A stretch of 64,000 bases of DNA from Branchiostoma floridae (Eukaryota; Chordata; Leptocardii; Amphioxiformes; Branchiostomatidae), in the NCBI RefSeq assembly GCF_000003815.2, contig NC_049990.1, forward strand, positions 19,280,394 through 19,344,393, in the 5' to 3' direction. The notes below the pieces were generated by a model. It was not told the DNA's origin, did no database searches, and worked only from the letters and a program-made list of their open reading frames with translations. Made by a program: the position numbers and the translations under genes. This document shows positions 9,040-47,798 of this stretch, in pieces (the stretch's first letter is position 1; every line of letters starts with the position of its first letter).

Positions 9040-9357
9040 CACACTGAGCTAGCCTGCCCCACCTGTCGCAGCAAGACTTTACTTCCGGGTGGCGGGGTCG
9101 CGGAATTGAAAGATAATTTCTTCGTGGAGAGCCTGAAGGACACGGTTGACGTCCACAAGAAGCTGGCTAATGAAGGAGAAAGTCTGGTCTGTGGGAGCTG
9201 TGAGACCAAGTCAGGAGCGAAGTCCTTCTGTACGGAATGTGGCGACTCTCTATGTGATGAATGTGTTACAATGCATCGTCGTATGAAGGCCACTAGAGGT
9301 CACCAGGTGATCGGCGTAGAGCAGCTTAAGGCCGAAGTAACGCCATTTACATGCTAG
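9040..9357 (+). pseudogene. TRIM C: truncated RING/B-box copy
   Basis: Homology to TRIM A and B starts inside the last RING cysteine pair (CPTCRSKTLL) and runs through the linker and first B-box (CGSCETKS..CTECGD..CDEC) to LKAE. It then departs from its relatives and stops after 7 unrelated residues. The RING start is missing or lies in gap 1. The break follows GAA with GTAACG, which could be read as a splice donor, but no continuing B-box 2 exon was found. A remnant is more likely than a functional gene. Confidence 0.75.
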
Positions 9358-20420: not shown

Positions 20421-20968
20421 CGAGGGGCGTTCAATAAGTAATAACTCTGACCCACTTCCAGTTGTCTGATCTAGATGAAATTTTGCATGTGTAACGATTC
20501 ATATCTCTACAGTTTAGCTCTGAACTAATTGTTGTTTCTGATTTACTGGTGTTTGAACTGAGTTATGTGTGAAATGGACCAGGTCTGAAATGGAGCCAGT
20601 TGAGTGTCGCGCAGTGATCCGGTTTTTGTATTTGAAAGGACGCACACCAAATGAGACTTTTGATGAAATGAAAGAAACTTATGGTGATGATGCCCCATCA
20701 TGTGACCTTGTAAAACGCTGGCATCCTGAATTCAAACATGGCCGGAAGTCTGTGGAAACAGCTCCCAGACCTGGTCGTTCCTCTTCTGCCATTGATGAGG
20801 CATCTGTTGGAAGACCAGAAAACGGTGTCCAGAGCTGCTTCAAACGATGGGAGAAATGCATAACTCTGGGTGGTCCCTATGAAGAGAAAGACTAATAACT
20901 GTGCCAAGTTTCATTAATCTCCTGCTATGGGAAATGAGTCAGGGTTATTACTTATTGAACGCCCCTCT
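20421..20968 (+). mobile_element. Internally deleted mariner element with intact TIRs
   Basis: Terminal inverted repeats of about 32 bp start (C/A)GAGGGGCGTTCAATAAGT, and the element is flanked by TA at 20419-20420 and 20969-20970. At 548 bp it is under half of a usual ~1.3 kb mariner. The remaining frame is described separately. Clean ends suggest it could be cross-mobilised by a full-length relative; that is inference. Confidence 0.9.
20590..20895 (+). pseudogene. Mariner transposase with central deletion, ends joined in frame
   Basis: From MEPVECRAVIRF the frame gives the N-terminal helix-turn-helix region of mariner transposases (FLYLKGRTPNETFDEMKETY..SCDLVKRWHPEFKHGR, then APRPGRSSSAIDEASV). 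It passes directly to the family C-terminus (RPENGVQSCFKRWEKCI..GGPYEEKD) and a stop. The catalytic D,D34D core is absent, so the roughly 100-residue product cannot transpose DNA. An in-frame ATG lies 7 codons upstream. Confidence 0.85.
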
Positions 20969-24567: not shown

Positions 24568-25337
24568 ATGAGACCTAAAGGTACACTCGTGTACTCCGTG
24601 CTGGTACTATTGATACTAGTGCCAGGTAAGTGATTTATGTGAACAACTGCTCAACGTGAATTTAGTACAACACAACACAATACAAGCTTTATTGTCACGT
24701 ATCTTAGCATTATGAGAGCTGTCGGATCTAAATATATAGTCAAATCTACTTCTGGTATTGGGTATCTTGAAATTTGTGTACGTATATAGTACTGTATTTA
24801 GTAGACAGCATTTTTCTCGCCGGTGTAAAGAGAAATACAATATTCTACAATAGTCTACTACTCCTTTCAAGATCTTCCAAGGCTACTAAATTACTACAGT
24901 TCAGCTAATGATCTGCGAGACTACGTTCTGTCTAGTACTACAGTTTCAAGGGAGAAGTGTAAATTGGGCATGAGCACCGAAAAGTACACATTTGCGAACT
25001 TTTTGCCATTGTCTTTGCTTCCTTGTCAGTATTTTCCACTGATCGTAGTCCAATATGTTACAGTATTCTGTGAGGAGAGCGAGGAACATGTCGGTGACGA
25101 CAGTTCGGATGGGCATGATGACAGTGGCGAAAGTTCGGATGAACATGACAGCGGCGAGAGCAGTTCAGAAGAAAACCGCTTGGGGGCGTTGGTGATATGG
25201 GCGGAGCAAAAGATCGGCCAGGGCGGCCCGTGGTTCTATGGACCTACCATCATCTCCTCGTCCCTACGGTCGCTACCAGCAGGGTCGGATGGTGCAAACA
25301 CGGACCCCGACGAACTTCTGACGCTCACTCCGCCAAG
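24568..25337 (+). CDS. Receptor exons 1-2: signal peptide, acidic linker, first propeller strand
   Basis: Exon 1 (24568-24625) encodes [19 protein letters not shown], a short basic start and hydrophobic core. The phase-1 junction to 25064 restores VFCEES, a plausible cleavage region. Exon 2 continues with an Asp/Glu/Ser/His-rich linker of about 35 residues built from DSGESS-like repeats, which could bind cations. [13 protein letters not shown] follows, probably the first propeller strand, and then a low-complexity link. An AG acceptor at 24543-24544 suggests that an untranslated exon lies upstream. Confidence 0.75.
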
Positions 25338-28300
25338 GTGAGGAACAGACTCTTGTTGAACTCATCACAAATGTTACAAATCCTTGTGTTACAATGTTAA
25401 CTATACCTATCAAAATAGGATACTACCTGACATATTTATAAAAGTAATACTACAAAGGCAACATTTTTTGAAAAAAATGCAGAATGTGGCCGAAGGGAAA
25501 ATGCAGCAAAAATCGCAAGAAAAGAAGCATCAAGAAAGGCAACATTTTCGCGAAAATGCAGCAAAAAAAAAAAAAGTATCTTACCACGGATTCGATCCCG
25601 GAGCGTTGGTATACAACGCGTGAATAATACCACTGTGCCAGTGCTACAATATGTTACAGGGGCACGTTTTAACAGGTATAGAAATGTATTGCGTGGCTTG
25701 AACACGTCCGTTCACCGTTGAATTTGCAAGATTCCAAGGTCCAATTTTCTTAAGATAATGTTTTTGTGTGAAAATTTATCAATCTCGTTCATTCCATGGC
25801 GGGCAACTTCTTCCTTGAGCGCCTGTTTTGTCGTCTCAGCTGCTATAGTATTATCAAACTGGCCGAATGCCATTTTGTGTTCTGTGCTTTGATTGGTTCA
25901 CCTCTGCGTACAGTACACCCGAGACAGTCCGTGACTTTATTCCAATCAAAAAGCTGGAAACGCGGAGTATATGTTTACAGCTTCCATTTTTTCTGAGTTC
26001 TAATTGGCTATTATGAAACTCGATGCCGATTGTGTTCTGTCCCTTGATAGGTTCACCTCTGACGTAAAACCGAGAAAGTGAGACTTCAAGCCAATCGAAA
26101 AGCTTGAAACGTGGAGTACATGTTTACAGCTTCCATTCTTTCTGATTTCCGGGTGGAATATGCAAATATCTGAGGAAAAACTAAATGTGTGGCTTCGCCC
26201 ACATAAATATTAGTAGGTAACGCTAGTTCACCTTTATCCGAAGGGTAACCTACAATAACAACGTATCTAGGCATATTGGGTGGTGGTTTCAAACTGTATG
26301 GAATTTTTTTGAAAATGATGCATATTGAAACGAAGGTCCGTTGACTCCAATCCCAAACCACCTACCATAAAGGTAACACTTCAGTACGTGACTTTAGTTA
26401 ACCTTTATCCGTGGGGTAACCTATTATCGTTATTTCTATTTTAAACAACGGATATTTAGGGATATTAAGTGGATGGACAGTGGTTTCAAAGTGCAATATT
26501 TTGAAGATATTGCTGTGTTTTAAAACAAGGTATATAGGTTACCTTATGGATAAAGATTAACTGACGTAATCAACAGTGGATATAAAATAATGGAAATGTC
26601 TGATTTTGTTTTATCTAGGTCCATTCGTGTAGTGACAGGGAACCACAACCAGAGTGTGGTGTTGTGGAGTGAAGTGGCACAGAATATCGCCAAGACGACC
26701 ATGGAGGAGGTATGTGCGTTATGTGTGACAAAGCCTGACACTGTAACGAGCTCGAGTACACTTGAGTTAACAGCATGCAACTTCAGCTTGGCTTTTCAAT
26801 GTTTATTTTTTTCTAGGAGTCAGATTGATCTATAAGACTAGATTTCAAATCTCCGCTCAAACGATACACCCAGAAGTAAACAGAACACTTGCGATCCTAA
26901 CGTTCTGTTCATGTCAACCAAGTGATTTCATAACAATAACTAATTGCCACAACAGAATTATGCAAACTTTGTTATGGTTACATTTTTAGGGATCAATATC
27001 TACAACAGCAACAATATAGCAATGTTTTTTTAACATTTTGCTGTTGCAGTTATTTGTTCGTTTAGAAGCGCAACCATACAAAAGTTTTCAAATACAAGAG
27101 AATTGTTTACCTGGATGTCTAACATTGATAAACGCATAAAGTTTGTATCATTTTGTTTTGTCAATTAGTCATTATGGCTAAAAATTAAACGAAAGGCTTT
27201 TAGTTTAATATCTAACAAATAAACGAAAGACTTCTAACATCAACCCTTTTTCCAGACGGGTCGCCTTACGTCCCCTACCCGGGTGTTTGTAACGGGCACG
27301 TCCGGCCGTGTAGGCGGGCTGGCGGTGGACTGGCTGTCCGGGAACATCTACTGGTGTGACGCCTCCTACAACAGCATCCTGGCGGCCACGTCTGACGGCA
27401 CCAGGCGGAGGGTACTGGTACAAACAGGCGCGTACAGCTCTCCGTCTGGACTAGCCCTACATCCAGAGAAAGGGTAGGAGACGACTTTTAAGTGTGTCTA
27501 CTATAAGGGATCGGGAGAAAGGCGTCATGAACATATACAGCTTTGCTAGCTAACGTTTTCAAATCGGGACCCGGCCGGGCTGTTGTGGAAACAGAAAATA
27601 GAAAATGTAACGTTAGTGCTGAAAAATATGTTTTACGCAAATAATGCCCAAGACTATTAGCTACACGTCTTATGTACTTTGGTGTCTTTTATATCATCTT
27701 TACTGGGGGTTCCCGAAAGCTGCCCGGCCGTGCCCCGGTTCGGAAATGTGACCTTAGGCGTTTTCTATCGATCGTAAATGTATACTTGCAAGGAGCTTTT
27801 ATCAGATAAAATTATAATAAAGCTCCTTGATATTTGTAAGAAAATATTTACAAACGCATGATTTTTCCAAAGTGTATTTACATGAAATAAAATTATTGAT
27901 GATGATTTGCAAAGGAAATCTATAAGAGAAAAACACAGTAGAGTATAGAGAGTAGACGGGCATGGGACGGGGGCAACAAAAGAAGAAAGTCTGAAAAGCG
28001 TAGAGGTTAACTGAAATATACTAGTAAATAGAGCGCTAGGAAATAACATGAATTTCCCCAAACTATAGACTTTCATTTTATTCCAAATGGTCCTATTGAT
28101 TAGCTAAGGCGTTATAGCGGCCCGCCCAACATCCAGCAAGTCCCCGAGCCTATGCCGGGAAAGGGCCATGTGCATTTACAGACCCGGCCAGCGGAGTTTA
28201 CGTTACACGGACTATGTATACAACTTGATAAGATTGTGTCGGAACTGCATTAGAAACGAAATTTGCATGTCAAACTGCAAAACAGTGCTGAATTAATTCA

Positions 28301-31300
28301 AACTGGTAGATGCATTTTTTTCCTTTATTCTTATCAACTCCTGTTTCCAGACTGATGTTCTGGGCCTCCCAAGGCTACCCGGGTATCGGCGGGAAGATCG
28401 AGCGGGCCACCATGACAGGACAGGGCCGGGTAGCTCTGGCACACCGCGGGCTGGTGGACCCACGGGGACTGGCACTGGACTACGCAGACGACAGGTCAGG
28501 CAATGCAAACACTTAGGACACCTTTCCACTAGGACGGCGATCTTAAGAATGCGCTACAATTCAAGTAAACGCCGGCCGAATTTTTAGATCGGCTGGTGCT
28601 CGCCGAATTTAAGAATCTCCCGAACGTTGTCCGTATTTTTCGCTGAATTCTGTCCCGTTATGAATTTAAATGGGCTTGGTGTTTCATTCCGTAAAGTTTA
28701 AGTCTTTTTTTTGGGGCACAGCTGACATTACACGGAGGTTTAAATCCCAACGGTAAAGCTACTAAAAATCGCCCGAAGCCCTAGGACGTCGGCCGTGCTT
28801 TGGTCGAAAATGCTCATTTGGAGCTCGCCGACACGTCGACCGGGCTCAGTTCTTGATTTCTAAGGGGGGCTTGACCTTGGTGTCTCTGCGTTCTAACGTT
28901 TAAAATAATGCTCAACGAAATTTATAGAAAAAATAACGAATCCTTTTACTCTTTGTGTGTGTTTTTTTTCTTCAATTAACGTTACACCTTTACATTTTGT
29001 ATGACATTCCATGTATGAAATCGAAAGTTACGCTCATATGTTTTACATCACAGTGAGAGCTCAGCGCAAACGCCATCTAGTGGAAAGGGGGTCTAAATAA
29101 TACAATGTTGCACAAAGGTGACTCAAGAGGACAAAGTTGAAGACGCATTCAAATGTACCAAAACATCATTTGACCATTTGAATATACTTAAAACATTTTA
29201 GATAATTCATAGGTAGCTGTGGTTAGCCTGGAAGAAAGTCTAAGTCCATTTGGCTTTGGTACAAATGTAAGTTGTGCAAAACATTAGATAATAGAAAAGG
29301 GAGAGTAAAACGCCGTTTAGATTATAACCCATGTATCTTGCAGACTGTACTGGGCAGACGTCATTACAGGGAAGATAGAGTCAGTCACCCTGGAGGGTGG
29401 AGACAGGACACTACTACTATCTGCACCAGGAACTAGCATCAAGGGACTCGCCATGTACCAGGTAACGTGTCATCTACATCTTGTGTGTTGTTGATTGTTT
29501 TTTGTCCAGAAATCGATATTGTACAAATAACGTTAACACTAAATGGTCGAGGACTCGAGATCATTCTGTGCTAAAAAGTGAGCCAATTGTACTAAATTAC
29601 GTAAATGATGAGAGCTATATTTGTATCTAGCTACATTTTCAGTTTCTAGTAGTGAAAAATACAAATTAGATCAACTTGCGAATGGGTTGATTGGTAGTTT
29701 GTGGAAAGAGCTGTACAGTCCATTGAGTGCAACCACACACAGAAAAAGTCAGACTGTTTCCACCCCCCACCCCCCTCATTAGGTTGGACCACAATTTCTT
29801 CCATCCATAATGGACCGTATTTTCCATCAACCCACTTGTGAATTAATTGAAAGCATTGATCTACTCGTAGCAGAAACAATTATAGTAATTTCTTGCCTTC
29901 CAATGGTTTACAAAGTTCTGTCAACTTTATTTCAGGATTACCTGTACTACACAGACTGGGTGGGCCGTAAGGTCCACTGTGTGGGGAAGTCTAATGGAAG
30001 AGAAGTGTTTGCTGTAACTGCAAAGACAAGTGCAAGGCCTGTCGGGATTACGGTGTACAACAGCACCAATCAGATTGCACCTTCAAACAGAGGTATTATG
30101 GGATATCTCTGTTGACTAATCTTAGAGGACTTAAGCCCAAGAGGTCTACTGTTGTTTTTAAAAGTAGCAGATAGTATACAATGTGCTTTGTGGGGACTTA
30201 GTTTAACAGTAAGAGAGTGTATATCACTAAATACAATTATACCTTTACTGATACCTTTGCAAAAATACTATCTATTACTGTAACTCTTTATTTTGTTGAT
30301 GATAACTTAATTTCAGCAACTTTTGCCATCACTATCTAAGTAACTGCTAGACTTTCATCATCACAAATATTGATACCATTTTGTATTTATTCCCACTTGT
30401 AAAATTCTATGTCATGAACCTTCCTTTGCCACCAAACTCAAAGATTTTACTGTAATATCAAATACATTTAAAGTTTACATAACGTTAAATCGTATGCAAA
30501 CATCGTTTCATATGGTTGGTATAGGTCCTTGGTTAACAACTTCTCTGTACATTGCCAGGCATTTCTACCTAGGTACTGCATAATGATTTAGTGACCATCA
30601 TTAAGAATGCTGTTTTTTCTGTTCCCATAGTGTCCTGTATCCATGGTAACCACAGTTGCGCCCATCTGTGCCTGACGACATCTGCTGGTTACGAGTGTGC
30701 CTGTGCTGACGGTTATGAACTTAAGCAGGACAACCACACCTGTAGGCCAGGTGAGACAAATAACAATGGTCGTATTGTTTGGTATGATAAGTTTTATCAA
30801 AGCATTTAACATTACGGCATAATTAGCTTTGATACTTATTGGTGATTGGATGCTGCCTAGCCTTCCATTGGACAACTGGTGCTAGCCTTGGTGCTGATTG
30901 GCCAAGTGGACATCTCTTCTGTGATATTATTCTGAAATGCCAAAGTATGAAAATTTCATAACTTAAAGTTTTTTTCAATTTTTTTATGTTGAGTACCTAC
31001 TTTATTTGAGTTCCTGATTTAACCAAACTTTACAGCATATTCCATTGCATGCTGTTTTCCATCAAACTTGTATACAAGTCCACCACAACATGCTTATAAC
31101 ATTGCACATCAACATGAACACATCAAAATGGTGACCTCCTTCCCAGCATACACCACTCCGATGGGGAAAAAAGGCAGCACCCATGGACGCAAGCAAAAAT
31201 AGTACAGTTTTTGCCATCGCAAACCTGTAAATGCATTCTTCAAACAAATGATTTTTTGTTACTTGTTGTCTCTATAAACTAATTGTCCTTATCTTGTATC

Positions 31301-34300
31301 ACTGTCCAGTGGAGAAGCCAGGAGACTGCCCTGACCAGAGGACCCTGTGGCCAGTATGTAGTGACCAGTGCCAGACAGACGGACACTGTTCACATGACCG
31401 CAAGTGTTGCTTTAATGGCTGTGGTCATACCTGTGCAGAACCAGGTGAGAAAAAAAAATGATAAATAAAGCAACAGATGTATAACTTTAAACACTCATTT
31501 CATGAAAACTTTGGTATGTCCAAATTTTCTTGTTGAAACCACAGTTCAACTTTGATCAAGAACACTTATTTTTGTTTACAAAAAAAAAATATACTTAGAA
31601 CAAGTAAAACAGGTGTGGCAAAAAAAAGTATTTCCATGGCGACAAAATTTTCCTTTTCCATATCCCTGGAAAGCAAATAATATGGTTAAAAATTATGAAT
31701 TATGAATTCCATCAATTTTTCTTCCATACTTCCTCAAAAGAGAATTCATTTCCTACAAAACTTGCCTTTCTACATGTATGACTGCTTGGAGATCTTAAGG
31801 TCCACTGAGCTCGAGTTTGAACAGAAACCTTGGAAATTCTGGGCAATTGATTCGGAAAAATACACTAGTGGGCTAGCCCCTGAGGTATTACCAATTTTAT
31901 CATTCACAGACATTAACCCCTGCGGTAGTGACCACAACCCCTGTGTGTCGGAGGCTCGGTGTGAGGACCACTCCTGGCTGGGGGCGGTGTGCATCTGTCC
32001 CGAGAGACAGGAGGGGGACGGGAGGACCCAGGGGACAGGCTGCCAAGGTAAAAGATGAGCCATTGACCTCCAAGTAGATACTGGGAAGGAAACTTGTAAT
32101 GTTTAACATCATGATTGTGAAGGGCCTTCTGTCAGAAGAAAATGAGTGGTCAGAAAACACTAAAAAGCATTTAATGTTACAGCATATTTAGCTTTGATAC
32201 TGATTAGTGATTGGATCCCATGAAGCTTTCCGTTGGCCTATCGGTGCTAGCCTTGGTGCTGGTTAGTTAACTGGATATTAATTGTATGATATTTCTGAAA
32301 ACACTATATATGTGTGATTACCTAGTAAGTATTTGTTTACCTTTGGTTATGAATTTGAAAGTTTTTCTTAAATATACATGTGTTTTAATCAAATTGTGTT
32401 TAGGAATACTAAAAGGAAGCATTGCTTGACCACATAAAAGACTTCAAAATGAATTTTATTTTTCTTATTTCCTGCTTTCTATAATATTGAAATTGTAGCC
32501 TTAATGCATTTTAGGGAAAGGGATAAAACGATCCTGTAGATTTTTTTATAAATGATCTAAATCTGAATATGAATATCCAATCTATAATTGAGTGCTTGCA
32601 CACTGAACTTTGTTTTGAAATACAAGAAGTACTCAGTGTAACAATTCCCCAGAACCCCGCTGTCCTGCCCTGACATCTTGCACCAAGTTCTGTCCACTCG
32701 GCTTCCGGCTGGATGATGAAAGGTGTCCCATTTGTGAATGCAGGGGTGAGTATAATATTATGATGTACAATATTATGTTGCTATGTTTCTTGATGAAATA
32801 AAAAATTAACTTATAAGGAAAAGTCTTTTGTGTCTCATATGTGGACTGAGGCTCTCTTTTATTGTGTATGCTTGTTGTGAAAATTTTACAAGTGTTGTTT
32901 ATTTCCAAGTGTGTGTGGAGAAACTGTCTTTATTCCACGCCCTGTCAAATAGTGGATGATAGATTATATGCATGGATCCAAAGCATGTAATGAATAAGAA
33001 TGTAGATAGTTACTTAATATACAATCATGTACTTACTGACATACAATAATATACTCAATATACAATAATTATGCTTGGTTACACAGTGACACAGTTTGCA
33101 TACTGTAATGTAGAAACGTTTGTGGTGGTAAGTTTTATGTTTGCGGTTTTCACAAGTCTGCTTCTTGGCGAACACGATGAAATATCCGCTAACTTAAATG
33201 CATTTACATGTACAATACACCTGCGTTTTGTTTCCATGGTTACAGGAAGTGACAAGCCAGGCCAGTGCCCTGCGCCAGATGATGATGATGATGATGACAC
33301 AGGACCATGTTGGTGCCACTGCACCTCCGACCACCATTGCCATGGTAACCAGAAGTGCTGCAGTGTGGGCTGCAGTCTGCAGTGTGTGGACCCTGTGACA
33401 GACAGTGACAGCAGTGAGGATGTCTGCTCATCGGATGATTCGTGCGTTGTCATGGCAACCTGTGGTGATGCTGGCTGTCAGTGTGAGCCTGGTTACCGTG
33501 GTGACGGGAGACGGGATGGTAGTGGATGTACAGGTAGCCTTGGAATTGAATTCTCTAAGATTTCTTAGATACATGTATGCTGGATAATTGCCTTCAAGTT
33601 GATACTTATAGCTACTGGCCTCTTTAGATAATGCCTGCATGTCCCTTTTCCATAATGCTTGCTAATTGATAGGCAGCTAATTCTATTTCCTTTTTATTTG
33701 TAGTAAAAGACTTCTTTTTTCACTTAGTTCTCAGTGAGTGTACTATAATTTGGCTAGTTTATTACCCTGCTTGATTTGAGCATAATATGTAAGGAGCTCT
33801 TCTAAAATTCAGCATAAAACATTTCAGGGCCCTCAAGTAGAACTTCTTCTAAGATGTTCTACAAGAAAAAAGTTAAAATATTTTTGCAAATTTTATAGAA
33901 ACGGGAGATAAAATTCCGCTCCTCAATTAAGTAACTTGTGAAAATTAAAAGTGTGTCAATTCAAAGGCATGAAATTGTCACCTTAAATTAACTAGACCGA
34001 GTATAGAAAATTCCCAAAAATTGTCAATAGATTTATGATTCTTGAAGTAATGTTCTTTAGGTAGAGGAATAAAAAGCTGTTGCAACAATGAATAGATTTT
34101 TTATTTTAATTCAATAATCAGCTTTTATTTTATCTTTCACAGACATCAATGAGTGTACTGAAGATGCTACACTATGTGATGACAATGCCATCTGTACCAA
34201 CACCAATGGGTCGTACCAATGCACCTGTAGGGAGGGCTTTGCAGGCAACGGAGTCACCTGCTCAGGTGAACAATCATCATTATCTATTACAGAATGTTAG

Positions 34301-37300: not shown

Positions 37301-40300
37301 GTATCTAATAACAGTCCTGACTTGTCCCTGTTAACCACTATATGTTGCAATACTTTTATGTGTAAATTTTGAAGTATTCTATGATGCCTCACCTATCAAG
37401 CATGCAGATACTTGTCAGATACTTATAACACAGTCAGTAATATTATTGTTGAACTGTCCTCCAAGTGAGTTTTTATATCTTTTCTTGACAGACGAGGATG
37501 AGTGTGCAGATGACACCTCCATGTGTGAGCAGACCTGCACGAACACACCTGGCAGCTTCAGCTGCGCATGTCAACAAGGTTTCCTACTGAACAATGACGG
37601 GCGGACATGCCAGGATGTGGACGAGTGCACCGTGGACAACGGGGGGTGTCAGCATCTCTGTGAGAATGATTACGGAAGTTTCTACTGTGAGTGCAGGGAT
37701 GGTTTTCAACTGGCAAGTGACAGGAAATCATGCACAGGTATGGGAAAATTTACAGCCAGTCATTTAACTTCATATTCAGCACCAAGGAGAGATACTTTTT
37801 AACCTTTTCCCTTATGCCTAATCCCATAACTTTAGAGTTATGTGCCAAAAGGCTCCCTTAGCAGAACAAAGGTTAAGGAAATATGGTACTGGCCCACCTG
37901 ACAAAAATTTTCAATCACAAAGTATTATCATGTTAATGTAAGAAGATTGTAATGTTTCAATTGATTTGTAATGTTGATATAAAAGAGTTGCACAAGACAA
38001 CTATAACATTTGTAGGCAAATACATGTTGTTTCCCTTCACATGGTTTAGACTACTGCTATCTCCATTCTCACTAAAAAAAACATTCATATACAAATGTAT
38101 AATATAGTTCAGGGTTGAACAAGTTTTCTAAAATCCACTTGTCCTATCGGGCAAGCACATAAAAAATGTACTTGCCCGAACCAATTTTTCACTTGCCCAA
38201 AATTCAAATGTCACTGTTACTAGTATATGCATTTTCACTTCCAGCAATGGAATTCTCTGTAGACAATTGCTTGATGTCATGACTGTAAAAAGTAACAAGT
38301 ATATCAAAATTGCACGAAAATCAATGGAAAAATCTTACTTGCCCGATCGGACAAGTGGGGTAGGACATGCACTTGCCCGAACAGCACTTTCACTTGCCCT
38401 GGACAATAGGGCTAGTGGACTTGTTTATCCCTGTAGTTATCAGCCCCTCCAGTTCTGTCCTGCCACTTGCTACATAATGTAATCAAACACCACAGGGTGT
38501 CTGCTACTTTACCAGTAATGATGGTAACAGCCGTCTGCTACAGGTCATCGACCTTATTTGCATGAAGAAGAAGAAATGGAGCAAAAACAATATGTTTCCC
38601 TTTCCATGAAGGTAATGAAATGACTCAGGTTGCTTGTATTTCTGTAGATATAAATGAGTGCCAAGAGGACCACTCCTGTAGCCAGGTGTGTAACAACACA
38701 GCCGGGTCCTACTTCTGTTCCTGTTGGGAAGGGTTCATCCTGGATGAGGATGGCTGGACTTGTAGAGGTGAGTCACAACAACAGTTGATGGTGATGCAGA
38801 TACATTTCTGTTGCTGAAGATACCACTGGTTACAAAAGCTGTACAGACTAACTGTACATGTCATATGCCATTATGATTTATCCTGTAGGCTTTGATTGAG
38901 TTGCATTTGCTTGTCACAGTGGTAACTCTTGTGAGGACTGTTGCATCTAAAATATCATATGTTGACATTTATTTGTGAACCATTTTTTTTAAGCAATACT
39001 TTGTCATTTTGTCTCAAGGACATTTTCATACTTAACTTTTAAATATTTTGAAAATAAAAATTTTGGGAATTTTGGATGAAAGAATGAAGCTCTACTTTTC
39101 AATAAAAAAAAAATTTCATTCAAAAATGAAATGAACATGAATGCTACTTTGATTGTTAGCAATAATGTTGTTTATTCAATTATTTATTTTACACAATGTG
39201 TGGTTTTGACTGTAATATAGAAAAAAACTTAACCCACGCCTACCAGACTACATACCTTTCTGTCCATTCCCAGCGGAGAACCCGTGTGCGGATGAAGCCG
39301 CAGCAGGCTGTGATGATATGAACGGTTGGTGCAGGACTGTGGAGGGACAGGCTGTGTCTGGCTGTAACACTGGGTTTATACTGACTCAGGATGGGAGAAC
39401 TTGTCAAGGTATAGATATAACATAGATATAACATAGATATAACTCTATAAATAATGAGATGATGAGATGAACGGTTGGTGCAGGAGTGTAGAGGGACAGG
39501 CTGTGTGTGGATGTAACAGTGGGTTTATACTGACTCAGGATGGAAGAACTTGTCAAGGTATAGATATAACATAGATACAACTCTATAAATAATGAGATGA
39601 TGAGATGAACGGTTGGTGCAGGAGTGTAGAGGGACAGGCTGTGTGTGGCTGTAACACTGGGTTTATACTGACTCAGGATGGGAGAACTTGTCAAGGTATA
39701 GATATAACATAGATATAACATAGATATAACATAGATATAACATAGATATAACTCTATAAATAATGAGATATATGATGAGATGAACGGTTGGTGCAGGAGT
39801 GTGGAGGGACAGGCTGTGTGTGGCTGTAACAGTGGGTTTATACTGACTCAGGATGGGAGAACATGTCAACGTATGGATATAAAGTTAAGTATAGATATGC
39901 ATGTTATTGAGTGTTTATCTTAGTCCTTTTTGAAAGTAATTGCAGCACATTTTGCTCAGAACTCAGTGGTACTGTTTCAAATCATGGTATGCCACCGATC
40001 TTGTGCCCTTGGGATATAAGACACAACTTTCCTCACTCCGTCCAGATGTAAAAATTGGTACCTGACCTAGGCTGAGGCAGTAAAAGGTGATGGAAGGAGA
40101 GGGATTGGCTCTGCCTCCCACTACTGTGCCCTCCACTACAACCCACTGCCCCTAAGACCTCAAAAAGACTACTGGACTACCTTTACCATTTACCTAGTTC
40201 CTACTGTAAATGCATTTAAGTTCGCGGGGATTTGATTTCGCAGTAGCAGGAAAAGGGACTTTTCGCGGTGGTTTTAATTTTGTGGTAGCACCATGCACTG

Positions 40301-43300
40301 TAGTCTCTTACTACCATGAAAAAATATTTGCGGCGGTTTTAAATTCGCGGTAAAGTGGCTACCGCGAAAAACGCGAACATTAATCCACCGCAAACATTTC
40401 TGCAATTACAGTAATTCGTTATAGTGCCTGTGCTCTCCAGGGATGGACATAGAGAAAAGTATACAGTCAAACCTGTATTAGGGGCCACCTCTACAGAGGG
40501 GCCACCTGTCCATAGTGGCCACTTTTTGTCGGTCCCTTGGGTATTTTATCTACAAGTTGCCATCTCTATACAGAGGCCACCTGTCTATAGTGGCCACATT
40601 TCTCTGGTCCCTTGTATAATGACATTATTTCTTAACTTATACTTATTAATACATAATCTAATGCACTGTTTCTTAAATATATCCAGATGTTGATGAGTGT
40701 GCTGATGACAACCATTGCCATGGCAATGCCACCTGCATCAACTTCCCCGGCTCTTACACCTGTACCTGTGATGATGGTTACCAGGGCGATGGAAACACCT
40801 GCTCTGGTGGGTTAACAAAGCTGTTGTAACTGTCTTACAAATTTGCATGGCATTCAATCAAATTGATGACTACTAATGTTACATTGAATGAATGGAATGT
40901 AAACCAAAATGTTTCCTCAAATAACAGTAGACCTTTCTGGAACAATGATGAAATGTTTGTCTCCACATGAAATATAGATATGATATAAGTTGTCATAACT
41001 ATGATTATCATTATAACTCTAGATATTGTATATTACAGATATTAATGAGTGCACAGAGGACCTGTACATCTGTGACCCCCTGAGATCAACCTGTGTGAAC
41101 CTACCTGGATCATTCCGCTGTGACTGTCTGCCAGGGTTTGTGTTAGGAGATGGGGGTAATGTCTGTCAAGGTACTGATCAATTTTATGCTTTAAAGTTAT
41201 AGATAATGCAATTGTCACTGATTCATTTCATAATATGTGGATAATAGACAATTCTATTGTAGTTGCTAATTTTGTTCAAATATCTTCATTATAAATTTGG
41301 CACTCTAGACAAATAAATGACTCTTTCTGTCACATGTAGCAAAGCACTATCAACTGTTCAGGTCAGGTACTAGGTATATGGTGACAAATAACCTGTCTTA
41401 GTTAATAATTTGACACTTTTCATAATAGATTAAATTACTCTTCATGACAAATTTAGCAAACATGGTCAAACTACAGTCAAACCTGTCTATAGTGGCCACT
41501 CAAGGGACCAGAGAAATGTGGCCACTATAGACAGGTGGCCTCTGTATAGAGGTGGCAACTTGTAGATAAAATACCCAAGGGACCGACAAAAAGTGGCCAC
41601 TATGGACAGGTGGCCCCTCTGTAGAGGTGGCCCCTAATACAGGTTTGACTGTATTGAGGACAAGTACAGTACTGCAGAAAATAGCTAAATAAGTCAGTTT
41701 TTAAATTGTCAGAAGTGTTTGATTGACTCTATAAAAATGTCTGAAGTGCTTACTTGACTGATATTTGTCTTATGTAATTGATTTCTAAAATTTGACGCTT
41801 TCCTGACAGATATTGATGAGTGCATGTCAGACACCCACAACTGTGACCAGAATGCAGACTGTGAGGACACGGAGGGCAGTTATGTGTGTCGGTGTGCAGT
41901 AGGGTTCACTGGAGATGGTACAACTTGTACAGGTCAGTCAGAAGGGTCATAGTTCAAGTGACAGAGGGCCAAATGTCATTATAAATGGCCATAAGAAAAG
42001 CTTTACTTCCAGTCAAGTAAAAACATTGTAAAAGGCTGTTTGAAATGCTTTGAATAATCCCCAATTACTTCTATTTGTCTGTATAAGAAGCAAAACATAA
42101 CATAGCTGAATTAAGTTCAGCACCAAGGACAGGTGCCTTCTGAAACACAGTATCTTCTTTAAAACAGTACTAGCCGGATAAAACGTTTCATAAGAACTGT
42201 AGACTAAGCATTTTGAAGTATGTAGAGATGAGTAGAGTCTAATATGCCAACAGCAAAGAGTATGGTACAAAACATGCTTTGTATGATTCATTACAATGCA
42301 GAATTTTTTACTGAAATGATCACACATGAGGGTAAGTATTCATAATAATCCATCTGTTTCTCATTGATGAAATAGAATACTAACGATCATAATAACTTTT
42401 CTTGCATGCAGACATTGATGGCTGCAGTGTTGACCACAACCCTTGTGTGCCAGAGGCCACCTGTGCAGACATACCTGCCCCAGGGGTGGGGGCTATATGC
42501 ACCTGTCCCCTGGGGAGGGATGGGGATGGGTACGTGGATGGGGAAGGATGCAGAGGTACATTCTATTATTGCATTCTTGTCTTAGAATACAGGTCTTAAA
42601 AAATGATTGAGAGAAAACTAATTATTCTACTTAATATGTGACTAGGCTTACTAAATATTTTACTAGTCAGAAAAAAAATCATTTGTACTTTCCCTGCATT
42701 TTTATTAGTACTGACAGATTAATTCCGAGACTTGAGAATATTCTTCCTAAGGCTTATATATTATATTTTATTGTGACATTACAGTGGTGCCCCAGTGCAG
42801 TCCAGATGTCAGCCCCTGTGCTCCTGAAGCTCGGTGTACAGAGCCCCCCACCCCAGGGGGACAAGCTTCCTGTGCCTGCCCCACGGGGTGGGTAGGGGAT
42901 GGGAGAGTGGATGGACAGGGATGCCAGGGTTTGTATATCTCTCAAATCTTCTTTTTACTGCTAAAATTACCAAATTTTCATATACTTTCAATTGCTGAAT
43001 GCCAATGATAACACATGGCTGGATATATATCTCAAAGTAGTTACTCAAGCAACTGGATATGGTTTTGGAAACGGTCAGACGTTTCAACTGGAATCCACCA
43101 GTTTTCGTCCGTGACACTGAAGTGATCAACGTTTCCTATTGGACATCTGAAATTGTCTTCGTTCATAGTAAGAGTATTAAAGACCTGTTTCTTCCAGATC
43201 ACTTCAGTCACAGTCACGGACGAAAACTGGTGGATTCCAGCTGAAACATCTGACCATTTCCAAAACCAAATCCAGTTGCTTGAGTAACTACTTTTTGGTG

Positions 43301-46300
43301 TATCTTATTACTTGGAAACCTACATCGACGTATCTCATACATTGCTCTGAGTTATGAGTTTAGTTTAAAAGAAATTGAAATCCTATTGTACCTTGTAGAA
43401 CTCCTCATATTGAGTGGTCAGCATTCTCCTCTGGTTGGCTAAGGGGTGTTATACTTGGTCCCAGTCTGCTAAGAGCATACTGGCCTGTTTCTGTCAGAAT
43501 GTCTTTTTAGGCGGGCCTTTACATTTTTTTCTGCAGCCATGTAGCTGAAACTATCCCCTTAAAAATCCCCTCCAATTTGCTATGAACTTAGCAGGCAAGC
43601 AGAACTTTTAAGACTGTACAGACAGTTGATCCGAAAAGTACTGTAAATGCATTTAAGTTCGCTAGGATTTAATTTCGCGGTAGCGGGAAAAATGACTTTT
43701 TGCGGTGGTTTTAATTTCGCGGTAACACCAGCGACTGCAGTCTAATACCTTTATATAAAAATGGTTGTGGTGGATTTAATTTTGCGGTGAAGTGGTCGCA
43801 GCGAAAACCGCGAACATTAATCCAATGCGAACATTTCTGCATTTACAGTATCTTACACAGGCTAAAAAGTCCTTCAAGCAAAGAAATGTGCTAAATTTTT
43901 GTTGTCTGTTTCAGACATCAATGAGTGCCTGTTTGACACACATGGCTGCTCTCACACCTGTGTAAACACACGGGGCAGCTACTCCTGTGCCTGTCCTGAG
44001 GGGTACCTGCTTGGGGAGGACAGACGGACATGTGTGAACGTTAACGAGTGTCAGGATGACAATGGAATGTGCGCACAGGTGTGCGTGGACACAGAGGGAA
44101 GCTACAGGTGTTCATGTCACCCTGGGTACAAGCTGGAGGATGAATTCATGTGCACAGGTGAGACAAATAATACAGTTGCAAATGTAGCGTTTTGTTAGCT
44201 TATATTTCAGATCTATATCTTAGAAACAATCTTTAGTATGCTTCATATAGACAGGGTCTAAAAGATAGAACAACTAACATAGGGCTCCTGTGACATAAGG
44301 CTAGTAGGTTGGCCCCATAGGTTTGGTCGACAGCCATCCTCTTGATGTTTTTGTTCCAGTTCAAGTTGACTTCTCTCAATCATTTATCTGTAGTTTATAT
44401 TGGGTTACCTTTTTAAAAATCTCTTTCCCTGTTTGTTGAGTTCATTGCATGACTAAGATTTTAAGATTAAGAACAAGAATAGACTAAAGTAAACAATTTC
44501 ATCTGACTTTTGTTTGGAATGCAGCTATCCATCTCTTTAATGCTTTATACGTTGTATGCATGGTAATGTCCTCTTAGAGAAGTACAGACAATAGTACAAT
44601 CATTCTATATTGTATGTAATAGTCATGTTACAGTTCAGTAATATGATATTTGACTGCATCCCACAGATGTCAATGAGTGTGCTGAGGGCAGAGACAGTTG
44701 CCATGCCAACGCAGAGTGTGTAAACAATGAAGGGTCCCACGACTGCTACTGTCGGACTGGGTTTGAAGGGGATGGACGCACCTGCACTGGTATGGCAAAA
44801 AGCTACAGTATATAATATTGTGTGTTCGAAAATATTTTCTCTCAGAGAAAGTGACCATTTTCTCAGATGGTTGTTGTGTTTCAATTTAGTATTGTACTGA
44901 TGTTATGAAAAGCTATTATCAATAATAATGATTTGTTTTCATTACTTGACTGTTCAACAATATGAAGTAATGGAGTAATTTTCAAATACAACATGCATGC
45001 AACCCAAACTAACTCTTCTGTGTGAAAACACAAGACAGCAGATCCATTGTGATAGGATGAGCGGACACCCTGTGTAATCTGAAGTAATGAATTATAACTG
45101 GCTCAATAATGATTCTTTCATGAATTTACAAGTTGACTCTTTTATCAATTTATCAATGGCAAAGTTCACCTCCATTGAAATCATTGTAATGCTGTACACA
45201 AAGTGAAAGGCCAGAACTGTTACAACCTTACCTACATTTCAGGTAAGAAGCCAACAGATTTTAACCTTTAGCACACTAAGCTAGTACCAATTCCCTATTG
45301 ATTTTGGAGTTAGGCAGCAGGTAGGAGGTAGCCTGGAATCCAGTCGTATTGTGCTAATTGGTCGCTCCCCTGAGGTACGCTTCCTGCCAATACGACTGGC
45401 CTTCGTTACCATTCGAACGATCGGCATTTGAATATTCGCAGATTTCATCTGCGAAATTTCTGATTGGCTGAATTATGGATGGTAAAGCACTCGTTCGAAC
45501 AGCCGTTCCATTATCATCAACATGGCCACCACTTCAGACGTTCATAATGCCTGAACTAACCAGCAAATTACCCGGAATTTCTTCACTAAAACGAGCAAAC
45601 AAAAACCTTGGAGGCTTTTCTCAACGGAAAGGATATTTGAATAGCACTCTTGCCAACCGAGTATGGCAAGAGTTTGGTTTATCAGATCGTTCCAATAGTC
45701 TCGAAGAAGATGGGTCGTTGATGATAATGGAACGCCTGTTCGAACGAGTGCTTGAACCAGCCAAACAGAAATCTCGCATAAGATCTCTGCGAATATTCAA
45801 ATGCTGATCGTTTGAATGGTAACGAAGGCCAGACATATTGGCAGGAAGCGTACCTTTGGGGAGCGACCAAAGCACAATACGGCTGGATTCCAGGCTAGGT
45901 AGAAGATTAAAGACTTTTCTTTTCTCCAACAGACCAGGATGAATGTGCAACAGCCGACTGTCAGCAGCTCTGCACCAACACACCTGGCAGCTTCATGTGT
46001 GGCTGTCAGGAGGGGTACCTCCTATTGGACGACAAGAGGTCATGTGACAACATTGACGAGTGCTCATTGGACGACCATGGAGGGTGCAGGCACATCTGTA
46101 GAGACACAGAAGGCAGCTACTACTGCGAGTGTGAGCCAGGATTTACTCTGGCACCAGATGGAAAATCTTGCTACAGTAAGGCATTTTTAGGGGCTTCTAT
46201 TCTGAAAATAATGCTAGCTATTTAGGGATATAACGTTGACAGACAATGGCTAAGAAAACTGCAAATTGCATTTTGAAAATATTGCAATTTGAAACCACCT

Positions 46301-47798
46301 TCTATCGACTTGATATCAATCATATGTACTTTAAAACAGTAGATACAGTTTACTCCATGGATAAAGGTGAACTAGCACTACATGTATAAGAAAACACAAG
46401 TTAACAAATGTAAAGTAAAGACTCTAATATATACAGAATGATTGAAATATCAGTGGTTATGGATAGTGTTATTCATGGGTTCTTCAATGGTTCTGAAGAA
46501 ATGTAACATTGGAAAACAATTTTCTGAGTTGACTAGATGACTTACTCCTGTCATAATATTTATATCACTTATCATTATAACAAATATCCTACACTCAATT
46601 TCTTATCAATATCTCACACAACAATGCTTAAACACATGACTTGATTTTCATCATTTGATGTCTGTAATACAGGAGACAATATCATAACAGCCAACCAGGG
46701 AGGAGATGGGGAGACTGCAGTTCCATCAGAGAACACAGGGGGCGCTCCTGTTCCCATGGCTGTGGGGCTGTCCATTGCTGCAATACTGCTGGTCCTCCTG
46801 GTCTTGGCTTTTGTCAAGTGTCGACCCAGGATCAACCAGTCTACAGCTGGGTAAGTAGGACCGCGCAAGCAATGGTTTAAATATAGAAAATGACTTTTGT
46901 ATGGATTAGTTGGTACTTTGAGTAGTGGTGCATTATGAAGTTGACTATACATTGATGAAGGATCACTTAAGATAGACCAATACAGTCAATCACAATTAGA
47001 TGCTAAACCAATGAGGTCATGGCAATTAGCGGATCAACCTATCAGAGAGTAGTTGACTAGAAGGTCTGCCAAATCTTTGGATTTATATGTTTTTATTTTG
47101 CATTACTATCTTTTGACAAAGGTGGGCAGGGTTACAAGATTAATCGTTTTAAATGAATTTCAATAACTTATCCTCTAAAGTCTATTTTCAATTTCCTCTC
47201 TCAGTTTCCTAGCATTACAACAAAAATGTTAATTTTATGCCCAAGAAAGGGCCATGGAATGAACTGGGACCAGTGCAGACATCTAATCTACAACTTATAT
47301 TTCATTTACAGCCTACAGAAGACTCTGCCATCAGTGTTCTTCAAAAAGCCTCTGAAAGAACCGGACCACATCTACGACAACCCAAAGTTTCTTCCTGAAG
47401 AGACAGCCATCAACAAGAAGTCCATCAGTGAGAAACAGATCCACGTCATCCTGCCGCAACAGCCGGCCTTCCCACCCCCTCCACCTCCTCCTCTGATTGG
47501 TCAGAGCAGCAGGCGTACCAGTAGGAGGTCCCCAGCTGTATCACCTGCGCAGCCGCCTACAGCACCTGGCAGCCGCCGAGCCCCGCGGAAGGCGAGAGCA
47601 GAGAATCCATACGTCCTTGACCCAACGCGACACATCCAGCACAACCACCAGGCTGTTGACCCACCAGGTCAGGGGGCAGAGGTCAACGACTATGGCACCT
47701 TCCCAGGGCAAAGGCCAGAGGTCAACAATGATGACACCATCAGTGAGCACATCTATGAGACCCTTGATCACCATGATGTCCCTGTCTCAATGATTTAG
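24568..47798 (+). CDS. Large single-pass receptor: YWTD propeller, EGF, WAP, antistasin, tail
   Basis: Thirty coding exons join in frame (about 1,644 residues): 24568-24625, 25064-25337, 26619-26709, 27256-27473, 28351-28494, 29344-29461, 29936-30092, 30631-30750, 31310-31444, 31910-32047, 32653-32745, 33246-33533, 34143-34265, 35323-35445, 35980-36117, 36514-36657, 36918-37052, 37492-37737, 38648-38767, 39274-39408, 40687-40806, 41039-41170, 41810-41932, 42412-42555, 42785-42928, 43915-44157, 44667-44789, 45933-46175, 46673-46850, 47312-47798. All have AG/GT borders. From exon 7's end through exon 28's end every junction is phase 1, so domains can be shuffled or skipped without frame loss. 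The start ATG opens a typical signal peptide. The overall shape resembles pro-EGF or LDLR-related receptors, but WAP and antistasin-like inhibitor domains are not usual there, so I give no symbol. It acts at the cell surface; ligands and proteases bound are unknown. Confidence 0.85.
25560..25640 (-). repeat. tRNA-like sequence (SINE head or tRNA pseudogene) in receptor intron 2
   Basis: On the minus strand GGCACAGTGG resembles box A and GGGATCGAATCC resembles box B. Between them GCGTT..AACGC can form an anticodon-like stem, and a T run follows. The acceptor stem does not pair, so it is not a working tRNA gene. Separate from the SINE family at 40.0 and 58 kb. Confidence 0.45.
25880..26155 (+). 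repeat. Diverged ~160-bp direct repeat, two units
   Basis: TTGATTGGTTCACCTCTG.., CCAATC.AAAAGCT.GAAACG.GGAGTA and TGTTTACAGCTTCCATT occur in order at 25890-25990 and again at 26050-26150. Confidence 0.7.
26396..26562. mobile_element. MITE with TIR AGTTAACCTTTATCC
   Basis: Ends AGTTAACCTTTATCCGTGGGG and its imperfect complement AGGTTACCTTATGGATAAAG. Related diverged copies occur at about 26230-26385 and in introns near 46230-46375, 53713-53912 and 59185-59320, recognised by the GGTTTCAAA..AATATTTTGAA centre and the TTTATCC..GGGTAACC end. Confidence 0.7.
26619..30092 (+). CDS. Receptor exons 3-7: YWTD (LDLR class B) propeller blades
   Basis: Five exons (26619-26709, 27256-27473, 28351-28494, 29344-29461, 29936-30092) each carry one YWTD-type strand: VVLWSE, IYWCD, LMFWAS, LYWAD and LYYTD. 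They have the usual GLAVDW / GLALHP / GLALDY / GLAMYQ partner strands. With IWAE in exon 2 this makes six, the number needed for a closed six-bladed propeller, and the EGF of exon 8 follows directly as in LDLR, LRP and pro-EGF. Such propellers bind ligands extracellularly. Introns between blades mostly start in phase 2 or 0, unlike the phase-1 EGF part, so the two halves probably have different origins. Confidence 0.85.
28520..29091. mobile_element. Possible TIR element in receptor intron 5
   Basis: CCTTTCCACTAG near 28521 pairs with CTAGTGGAAAGG near 29077, and a GGCG..CGCC pair follows inward. No clear target-site duplication; family not assigned. Confidence 0.5.
30631..30750 (+). CDS. Receptor exon 8: EGF closing the propeller
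   Basis: [37 protein letters not shown] has six cysteines with the spacing of the EGF that packs against YWTD propellers. It is bounded by phase-1 introns on both sides. Confidence 0.85.
30797..30945 (+). repeat. Intronic direct repeat, copy 1
   Basis: AAGCATTTAA, TTAGCTTTGATACT, GGTGCTAGCCTTGGTGCTG and GATATT.TTCTGAAA recur in the same order at 32160-32305, within different introns (8 and 10) of the receptor gene. Confidence 0.75.
31310..31444 (+). CDS. Receptor exon 9: WAP four-disulfide core domain
   Basis: Eight cysteines fit the WAP pattern exactly: C-x9-C-x3-C-x5-C-x5-CC-x3-C-x3-C, read as [33 protein letters not shown] domains are small disulfide-locked units, many of which inhibit serine proteases or act as antimicrobial peptides. 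A whole-exon phase-1 unit, so it is easily shuffled. Confidence 0.9.
31910..32047 (+). CDS. Receptor exon 10: EGF-like, non-calcium type
   Basis: [31 protein letters not shown] has six cysteines and the EGDGR..G.GC ending shared with exons 12, 15, 16, 17, 24 and 25. These form a second EGF subfamily inside the protein, distinct from the calcium-binding D-I-N-E-C type. Confidence 0.85.
32160..32305 (+). repeat. Intronic direct repeat, copy 2
   Basis: Diverged partner of 30797-30945. Together they flank the exons coding the WAP and following EGF domain, so they may mark an old segmental duplication. Confidence 0.75.
32653..32745 (+). CDS. Receptor exon 11: antistasin-like domain
   Basis: [20 protein letters not shown] followed by RCPICECR gives six cysteines in the antistasin order (C..C..C..GF..D..CPxCxC). 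Family members from leeches and other invertebrates inhibit trypsin-like and clotting proteases. At 31 residues it is a single minimal unit. Inhibitory activity here is inference. Confidence 0.8.
33246..33533 (+). CDS. Receptor exon 12: second WAP domain fused to an EGF
   Basis: One 288-nt exon holds two domains. The WAP part has a seven-Asp run in its first loop and an extra cysteine between the second and third framework positions (CWCHC), making nine; the [10 protein letters not shown] end is standard. An acidic linker (DSDSSED) leads to an EGF-like unit ([27 protein letters not shown]). The odd cysteine could pair between molecules or be a polymorphism. Confidence 0.8.
34143..37052 (+). 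CDS. Receptor exons 13-17: five EGF-like domains
   Basis: Exons 34143-34265 and 35323-35445 encode calcium-binding EGFs ([16 protein letters not shown] and [16 protein letters not shown], with the Asn/Asp-x-aromatic hydroxylation and calcium pattern). Exons 35980-36117, 36514-36657 and 36918-37052 encode the second subfamily. The first two of these share [10 protein letters not shown] and are nearly identical in DNA over that stretch, pointing to recent exon duplication or conversion. The intron between exons 13 and 14 carries a TTAA-flanked 510-bp MITE. Confidence 0.85.
34779..35288. mobile_element. 510-bp TTAA-flanked MITE (piggyBac-type)
   Basis: The element begins AGGGACATAATGTA and ends with ATGATGTCCCT in inverted order, directly flanked by TTAA at 34775-34778 and 35289-35292. 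TTAA duplication is the hallmark of piggyBac-type insertion. The interior is GC-richer with no open frame. Confidence 0.85.
35466..35600 (-). repeat. Retroposon 3' end with (ACAA)n tail
   Basis: Read on the minus strand, a short retroposon-like segment ends in repeats of CAAA within 35475-35500. Only the 3' end is recognisable. Confidence 0.4.
37492..39408 (+). CDS. Receptor exons 18-20: four EGF domains
   Basis: Exon 37492-37737 carries two calcium-binding EGFs without an intron between them (DEDECADD.. and [16 protein letters not shown]..). Exon 38648-38767 carries one ([15 protein letters not shown]..). Exon 39274-39408 ([30 protein letters not shown]) has only five cysteines: the fourth is replaced by Ser. 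Three non-coding partial copies downstream still encode Cys there. Confidence 0.85.
38110..38433. mobile_element. MITE with repeated ACTTGCCCGA phrases
   Basis: Ends CAGGGTTGAACAAG and CTTGTTTATCCCTG form inverted repeats. TAGTT directly flanks both sides. The interior repeats ACTTGCCCGA and CGGGCAAGT several times in both orientations. hAT-like termini are possible, but the 5-bp duplication is short for that group. Confidence 0.65.
39400..39880 (+). repeat. Three partial tandem copies of receptor exon 20
   Basis: The 3' two-thirds of exon 20 plus its donor and about 50 bp of intron (ATAGATATAAC repeats, CTATAAATAATGAGATGATG) are repeated after 39460, 39600 and 39780. Each copy keeps the frame [15 protein letters not shown] and a GTATAG or GTATGG donor, but none has a pyrimidine-rich acceptor or the first cysteine. 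I read them as an exon-derived minisatellite and not extra exons. Confidence 0.85.
40006..40200 (+). mobile_element. SINE fragment, same family as 57955-58250
   Basis: TTCCTCACTCCGTCCAGATGT, AAAAATTGGTACCTGACCT, AGGCAGTAAAAGG.GATGGAAGGAGAG, and ACTACTGTGCCCTCCACT appear in the same order as on the minus strand of 57955-58250. The tRNA-like head is missing here. Confidence 0.75.
40204..40411. mobile_element. MITE, TIR CTGTAAATGCA, TA duplication (copy 1)
   Basis: Flanked by TA at both ends (40202-40203, 40412-40413). The interior alternates TTCGCGGT and TTTTAA phrases. Sister copies lie at 43641-43848 and 49770-49987. TA duplication suggests a Tc1/mariner-type source. Confidence 0.85.
40461..40614 (+). 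mobile_element. CAGTCAAACCTG-family repeat, left arm before exon 21
   Basis: Nearly identical to the reverse complement of 41501-41653 over about 153 bp. It ends at TCCCTTG without the second terminal repeat and so looks truncated. Confidence 0.9.
40687..41932 (+). CDS. Receptor exons 21-23: calcium-binding EGFs
   Basis: Exons 40687-40806 ([17 protein letters not shown]..), 41039-41170 ([15 protein letters not shown]..) and 41810-41932 ([18 protein letters not shown]..) each encode one EGF with the calcium-binding start and the aromatic residue of the GSYxC segment; exon 22 has GSFRC. Exons 21 and 22 lie between two nearly identical inverted repeats (40461-40614 and 41501-41653). Confidence 0.85.
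41470..41653 (-). mobile_element. CAGTCAAACCTG-family element, complete, after exon 22
   Basis: Both ends carry ACAGTCAAACCTGT in inverted order, and the interior repeats GTGGCCACT and CACCTGTC. It is the inverted partner of 40461-40614. Confidence 0.9.
42412..46175 (+). CDS. Receptor exons 24-28: seven EGF domains
   Basis: Exons 42412-42555 and 42785-42928 are of the second EGF subfamily; the first repeats the [10 protein letters not shown] phrase of exons 15 and 16. Exons 43915-44157 and 45933-46175 each carry two calcium-type EGFs in one exon, as does exon 18; exon 44667-44789 carries one. Intron insertions between them include two MITEs (43034-43294, 43641-43848) and a 569-bp TIR element (45329-45897). 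Confidence 0.85.
43034..43294. mobile_element. 261-bp foldback MITE
   Basis: Two arms of about 95 bp pair with high identity (AAAGTAGTTACTCAAGCAAC at the left, its complement at the right), leaving a loop of about 70 bp with GAAGTGATC/GATCACTTC at its base. No target duplication identified. Confidence 0.85.
43641..43848. mobile_element. MITE, TIR CTGTAAATGCA, TA duplication (copy 2)
   Basis: Flanked by TA at 43639-43640 and 43849-43850; sister of 40204-40411. Confidence 0.85.
45329..45897. mobile_element. 569-bp TIR element, TAGCCTGGAATCCAG
   Basis: Inverted arms of about 120 bp (45329-45449 and 45781-45897) enclose a short centre. The open frames crossing it on both strands are mirror products of the arms and the centre and match no family I know. 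A diminutive relative with the TIR AGCCTGGATACCAG lies at 52542-52626. Confidence 0.8.
46673..47798 (+). CDS. Receptor exons 29-30: transmembrane helix and cytoplasmic tail
   Basis: Exon 29 (46673-46850) gives a short stalk and [20 protein letters not shown], a membrane helix at about residues 1452-1471, stopped by KCRPR. Exon 30 (47312-47798) gives a 160-residue tail with a seven-proline run followed by LIG, Arg/Ser-rich stretches and tyrosine motifs IYDNPKF, NPYV, DYGTF and IYETL. Proline runs of this type bind SH3, WW or EVH1 domains, and NPxY/YxxL-type motifs serve endocytosis or signalling adaptors. The frame ends VPVSMI and a stop. Confidence 0.85.

Follow-up and report, generated by a model that had tools for sequence, protein, structure and literature searches.

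A predicted gene on the forward strand of a 64,000-nucleotide stretch of the Branchiostoma floridae genome (contig NC_049990.1; the whole stretch is referred to as the window, and positions are counted from its first nucleotide) encodes a predicted type I membrane protein comprising a signal peptide, an acidic linker, a YWTD propeller, 22 EGF-like domains, two WAP domains, one antistasin-type domain, a transmembrane (TM) helix and a tail of 174 residues. The gene is best explained, with a probability of roughly 0.55, as a single-gene type I receptor whose shuffled WAP and antistasin modules would serve as spacers or ligand contacts and which would be internalised via the YDNPKF motif of its tail. 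The modular structure is read from the sequence itself; ligand, expression and endocytosis we infer from it. The parts of the gene are as follows:

24568–24625 (+): exon 1, start codon and signal peptide (hydrophobic N-terminus; no support from codon usage)
25064–25337 (+): exon 2, acidic linker followed by a probable propeller-closing strand (strand judged by eye, outside any alignment)
26619–30092 (+): exons 3–7, YWTD (LDLR class B) β-propeller (Pfam Ldl_recept_b; phmmer matches to LRP2, LRP4, LRP6, LDLR and nidogen structures)
30631–30750 (+): exon 8, EGF domain after the propeller, as in LDLR/LRP (aligned with the propeller as one unit)
31310–31444 (+): exon 9, WAP domain 1, eight Cys, Cys2–Cys3 spacing of 3 (Pfam WAP, 3.5e-12; best PDB match anosmin-1)
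31910–32047 (+): exon 10, EGF-like domain (from the domain listing)
32653–32745 (+): exon 11, antistasin-type domain, six Cys, Thr at the reactive position (Pfam Antistasin, 2e-9; alignment with guamerin and antistasin)
33246–33533 (+): exon 12, WAP domain 2 (nine Cys, seven-Asp run) and an EGF-like domain (Pfam WAP, 1.3e-8; best PDB matches omwaprin and anosmin-1)
34143–46175 (+): exons 13–28, 19 EGF-like domains, every exon phase 1-1 (exon phases, Pfam, domain listing)
46673–46850 (+): exon 29, stalk and TM helix (hydropathy maximum 3.02 over 19 residues; model frame not the top one by codon usage)
47312–47798 (+): exon 30, cytoplasmic tail with YDNPKF, polyproline, YGTF, YETL and C-terminal VSMI (from the tail sequence)

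The model runs from an ATG at 24568 to a TAG at 47798 (+) and encodes 1644 amino acids in 30 exons; all 29 introns, which measure 229–1281 bp, are of the GT-AG type, and the spliced translation keeps its frame throughout, in agreement with the first-pass annotation, which had joined the 30 exons without a frame break. The domain order proposed there is matched by Pfam assignments for propeller, WAP, antistasin and EGF and by the single signal peptide and single TM helix of the predicted protein, and its EGF count (three interleaved with the other modules plus 19 more) gives the same 22 domains. When each exon was scored by the codon usage of all the others, its model frame ranked first in 28 of 30 exons (the misses being exons 1 and 29), and the score exceeded the maximum of 262 background intron windows (0.26) in all except exons 1, 7, 29 and 30, that is, in 26 of 30. 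Each splice site was scored with weight matrices that left that site out; about 1.3% of 1426 background GT sites score at least as high as the median true donor, and about 2.2% of 1373 background AG sites at least as high as the median true acceptor. The weak sites, equalled by more than 15% of the background, are the acceptors of exons 8, 9 and 25 together with donors 25 and 28. Two possible polyadenylation hexamers lie approximately 0.63 and 0.73 kb 3′ of the stop codon, and both assembly gaps of the window (8927–9026 and 51311–51410) fall outside the gene.

Missed exons were sought in frames of at least 20 amino acids with an EGF profile made from the gene itself and with its own WAP, LY and antistasin sequences as queries. 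Outside the model and at i-E <0.5, the EGF profile matched nothing but three incomplete copies of exon 20 that lie in intron 20; for the WAP and LY queries, the best values outside the model were 0.076 and 0.14, with no match under i-E 0.07, the antistasin query had no match outside the model in these frames, and no Rfam family matched at gathering score in the window. As a prediction, the gene model is solid.

Exons 8–28 are all phase 1-1, so the modules that they encode could be inserted, duplicated or skipped in frame. One alternative is that the 30-exon chain merges several genes or isoforms, as would be the case if exons 17–30 made up a short EGF-TM protein. A scan with set thresholds for hydrophobic starts that reach a phase-1 donor returned, besides exon 1, only 36836 and 36887, which are in frame with exon 17 and which, together with the skippable exons and the weak splice sites, could be taken in favor of a merger; however, the two starts share one frame that simply reads through the exon 17 acceptor tract, and they sit in its polypyrimidine tract region. 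No other signal-peptide-like start passed the scan, the chain has one TM helix and the largest intron is only 1281 bp, all of which argues against a merger; such a chimera is very improbable and a splitting of the gene is unlikely.

The remainder of the window holds several other open reading frames (ORFs). Two similar TRIM-like ORFs (RING and B-box) lie in opposite orientation at 7456–8823 (−) and 12101–13381 (+), and a third TRIM-like fragment (9040–9354) adjoins an assembly gap. Two glycine-rich ORFs, 10132–10904 and 18368–19030 (+), are related to each other; a possible resemblance to the glycine-rich domain of ALK/LTK was left unsupported by the Pfam scans of 10132–10635 and 18368–19030 and the PDB search of 18368–19030, none of which gave a match. 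The ORF at 20557–20892 (+) encodes an HTH domain of the kind found in Mos1-type transposases. A presumed methionyl-tRNA synthetase gene lies in pieces across 49113–62147 (−), with a synthetase motif at 50813–51031, anticodon-binding matches below cut-off at 49113–49571 and a possible N-terminus at 61827–62147 that was assigned by eye and has no Pfam match; within its presumed span, an 875-codon open frame with endonuclease and reverse transcriptase domains (54823–57447, −) is probably a non-LTR retrotransposon.

When the complete protein was scanned with Pfam, Ldl_recept_b (9.4e-15, three stretches), WAP (1.4e-13, two) and Antistasin (1.6e-6, one) all exceeded the cut-offs, as did the EGF-type families cEGF, EGF_3, EGF_CA, FXa_inhibition, EGF, hEGF and EGF_MSP1_1; Plasmod_Pvs28, a further EGF family, and Vgb_lyase, a further propeller family, remained below cut-off. 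The isolated propeller also passes for SGL, another propeller family, and the isolated WAP1, WAP2 and antistasin-type domains pass with the values listed above. Exons 3–8, encoding the propeller and the EGF domain that follows it, align with structures of LRP2, LRP4, LRP6 and LDLR, whereas nidogen aligns with the propeller alone and is outscored by these four. In the alignment with the LRP4 chain 3v65_B, residues 61–335 of the 335-residue query, a stretch that opens inside exon 3 and closes with the EGF domain of exon 8, pair with residues 122–384 of the chain, matching five YWTD-type motifs (LWSE, YWCD, FWAS, YWAD, and YYTD) and the following EGF domain. The propeller had been described as six-bladed; five motifs can be placed against LRP4, but the strand of exon 2 that would close blade 6 lies outside the alignment and was judged by eye, so that a total of six blades would follow from membership in the family. 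Six Cys are present in 21 of the EGF-like domains, whose limits were set by hand, the exception being the exon 20 domain with five; a D/N-x-D/N-E calcium signature was read from the domain listing in 13 of the 22.

The WAP domains differ from the classic inhibitory ones. WAP1 has eight Cys with spacings of 9, 3, 5, 5, 0, 3, and 3. WAP2 has nine, with 13 residues between Cys1 and Cys2 and 3 between Cys2 and Cys3, provided that the additional Cys is the central one of C-W-C-H-C, as the omwaprin alignment indicates; the extra Cys then lies inside the short loop, which is preceded by a run of seven Asp. This run (33278–33298, +) is encoded by six GAT codons and one GAC codon and may differ in length between individuals. 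Among human WAP domains, Cys1-2-3 spacings of 6 and 8 are described only for the SLPI C-terminal domain and elafin, and the remaining domains have 3, 4, or 7 residues between Cys 2 and 3, which may be too few to accommodate an inhibitory site (PMC11408880). The corresponding spacings here are 9 and 3 (WAP1) and 13 and 3 (WAP2). The same source counters a strict rule, as WFDC2 and WFDC12 lack the 6/8 spacing yet inhibit proteases (PMC11408880), and crab and shrimp WAP proteins with other spacings have been reported as inhibitory. Against PDB, WAP1 scores highest with anosmin-1 (31.0 bits), followed by nawaprin (29.2), SLPI (25.2 and 24.5), omwaprin (17.7), and elafin (15.4; eight matches at E up to 1), and WAP2 with omwaprin (25.1), followed by anosmin-1 (21.6), nawaprin (19.2), SLPI (14.5), and elafin (12.4; nine matches at E up to 10), the margins between the best matches being a few bits only for either domain. 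The net charges are −3 (WAP1) and −8 (WAP2), opposite in sign to those of cationic antimicrobial WAP proteins, and make a direct antimicrobial action unlikely.

The antistasin-type module carries the six-Cys antistasin motif; its two PDB matches, guamerin and antistasin, have weak E values (0.41 and 0.92) because the module is short. Thr495 follows the second Cys, at the position aligned with Met in guamerin and Arg in antistasin. The residue immediately after the second Cys is taken here to be the P1 residue of antistasin-type inhibitors, in agreement with this alignment. The predicted P1 residue is Met in guamerin, while antistasin members active as inhibitors of trypsin-like proteases have Arg or Lys there (PMC6265900); none of these residues occupies the position in the module. 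With neither the WAP spacing nor the antistasin Thr being classic, the features of canonical inhibition are thus absent.

These observations bear on the function first proposed for the protein, that of a receptor acting as a protease trap. The receptor part of that proposal fits a single membrane-anchored propeller-EGF protein with a signal peptide, a TM helix, in-phase exons, LRP/LDLR homology and an NPxF tail; the protease trap is not supported, given a Cys2–Cys3 spacing of 3 in both WAP domains and Thr at the antistasin reactive position. The modules may nonetheless bind a protease that they do not inhibit. A membrane-anchored trap or clearance receptor, in which the WAP and antistasin modules would bind extracellular serine proteases for subsequent internalisation of the proteases, could still appeal to modules that pass the Pfam cut-offs, to the inhibitory activity of WFDC2 and WFDC12 noted above and to a tail motif that would suit clearance. 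Echinoderm antistasin/WAP-like proteins are also called inhibitors: a secreted one from a brittle star is termed a serine protease inhibitor, and the reference list of that paper includes a sea cucumber antistasin/WAP-like inhibitor whose title calls it functionally characterized (PMC11310086). Nevertheless, the short WAP loop, the extra Cys of WAP2, Thr495, and the best WAP matches, which are to anosmin and waprins and not to SLPI or elafin, make this alternative doubtful. Slightly more doubtful still is a variant in which the WAP and antistasin modules, presented by an LRP-type propeller, would use a non-canonical surface to capture proteases or their complexes with inhibitors, with clearance via the YDNPKF tail, as an exon-shuffling invention of this lineage. 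Most likely, the modules act as disulfide-rich spacers or ligand-contact modules and not protease inhibitors.

Exon shuffling has contributed to novel domain combinations in amphioxus (PMC10199209), and the gene bears possible traces of internal duplication. Near-identical DNA blocks, counted by eye, are shared by exons 15 and 16 (44 of 48 bases) and by exons 15 and 24 (41 of 47), a likely sign of duplication or gene conversion. Exon 20 (39274–39408, +) encodes only five Cys as a result of the replacement of a conserved Cys by Ser; the three partial copies in intron 20 all keep the Cys, and each has GT at the place of the donor. The regions concerned are:

35980–36117, 36514–36657, and 42412–42555 (+): exons 15, 16, and 24, sharing similar DNA blocks
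39422–39882 (+): three incomplete copies in tandem within intron 20, each derived from the 3′ half of exon 20 (sequence comparison)

Relatives of exons 9–12 were confirmed for none of 362 pattern matches in viral contigs, and relatives of the propeller-EGF unit for none of 17 pattern matches in prokaryote genomes; both collections lie outside animal genomes, and the results are silent on conservation.

The tail begins at residue 1471, its first residues lying at the membrane edge, and contains YDNPKF (1504–1509), YGTF (1610), YETL (1631), a polyproline stretch and the C-terminus VSMI. YGTF and YETL are assigned here, by assumption, to the YxxΦ class, and VSMI presumably fits a class I PDZ ligand. 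The single TM helix is followed by NPxF (within YDNPKF), vs. the NPxY of the LDL receptor family; Phe can replace Tyr in the NPxY motif of LDLR, but NPxF in place of NPxY may be weaker or inactive. YDNPKF fits the pattern [YF]xNPx[YF], which is tabulated, in the row for the platelet activating factor receptor, beside FDNPVY of LDLR (PMC4584282), and the adaptors Dab2 and ARH are described as binding NPXY in LDLR-family tails (PMC6912373). Short motifs of this kind arise by chance, so these are only suggestive of an endocytic or an adhesive receptor.

A receptor that serves adhesion or guidance and takes no part in endocytosis, making nidogen- or UMODL1-like matrix contacts and signaling through the tyrosines, the polyproline stretch and a PDZ protein, would accord with the nidogen match of the propeller, the calcium signatures of the EGF domains, the polyproline stretch and PDZ-type end of the tail and the precedent of UMODL1 (PMC8874799). 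The higher scores of the LRP2, LRP4, LRP6, and LDLR propellers and an NPxF motif that fits endocytosis leave it a tentative alternative of rather low probability. Several points also count against the preferred endocytic receptor: NPxF in place of NPxY, the WAP proteins with other spacings that are reported as inhibitory, the sea cucumber inhibitor, the scores of WAP1, for which omwaprin ranks below SLPI and anosmin-1 leads by a few bits, and the lack of LDL-receptor class A repeats, none of which turned up when the entire protein was scanned with Pfam at E up to 1. Class A repeats are the usual ligand-binding modules of the LDLR family.

Under the endocytic-receptor reading, an LDLR/LRP-type YWTD propeller and EGF unit would be displayed at the N-terminus on a long EGF stalk, the WAP and antistasin modules would have been gained through exon shuffling between phase-1 introns, propeller and stalk would bind an extracellular ligand, and the motif suggests that internalisation would proceed through YDNPKF by PTB adaptors and clathrin. 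The gene would then illustrate that phase 1-1 exon shuffling can graft modules of the protease-inhibitor type onto a receptor scaffold even though the classic inhibitory features are absent; with these features missing from the grafted modules, function is not readable from domain names. If the tail works, the protein would be a single-propeller uptake receptor lacking class A repeats and having an unusual ectodomain, useful for the study of how ligand choice evolved in the superfamily.

Among known systems, the LDLR superfamily (LRP2, LRP4, LRP6, and LDLR) shares with the predicted protein a YWTD propeller followed by EGF, type I membrane topology and the [YF]xNPx[YF] tail motif; the predicted protein differs in its lack of class A repeats by Pfam, which are presumably defining for the LDL receptor family in the strict sense, and in its single propeller, its WAP and antistasin modules and its long EGF stalk. 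Drosophila Cueball and pro-EGF combine a propeller, EGF domains and a TM segment in the absence of class A repeats; the WAP and antistasin modules and the 22 EGF-like domains set the predicted protein apart from them. UMODL1/olfactorin resembles it in joining WAP with EGF_CA and a TM segment, although the introduction of the same paper terms the protein, which has a role in cell migration and axons, secreted (PMC8874799), and anosmin-1 heads the PDB matches of WAP1 and comes second for WAP2. Both differ from it in carrying FNIII domains, UMODL1 also having EMI, SEA, and ZP, and the passages of that source cited here name neither a propeller nor an antistasin domain for them (PMC8874799); the predicted protein has no fn3 match at E up to 1 in the whole-protein Pfam scan. 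In molluscs and echinoderms, single proteins combine WAP with antistasin domains, as in limpet shell-matrix proteins (PMC3374290) and in sea star adhesive proteins, for which disulfide stability and an inhibitor role have both been suggested (PMC9382459); these are shell-matrix, adhesive or inhibitor proteins, in whose descriptions, as far as they are drawn on here, a propeller or TM segment goes unmentioned. No report of a YWTD propeller in combination with WAP and antistasin domains was found in the literature searched, a narrow search that was partly confined to the matches listed. The predicted protein is judged to be a propeller-EGF receptor form with WAP and antistasin modules, an unusual mix that would have been made by the shuffling of phase 1-1 exons.
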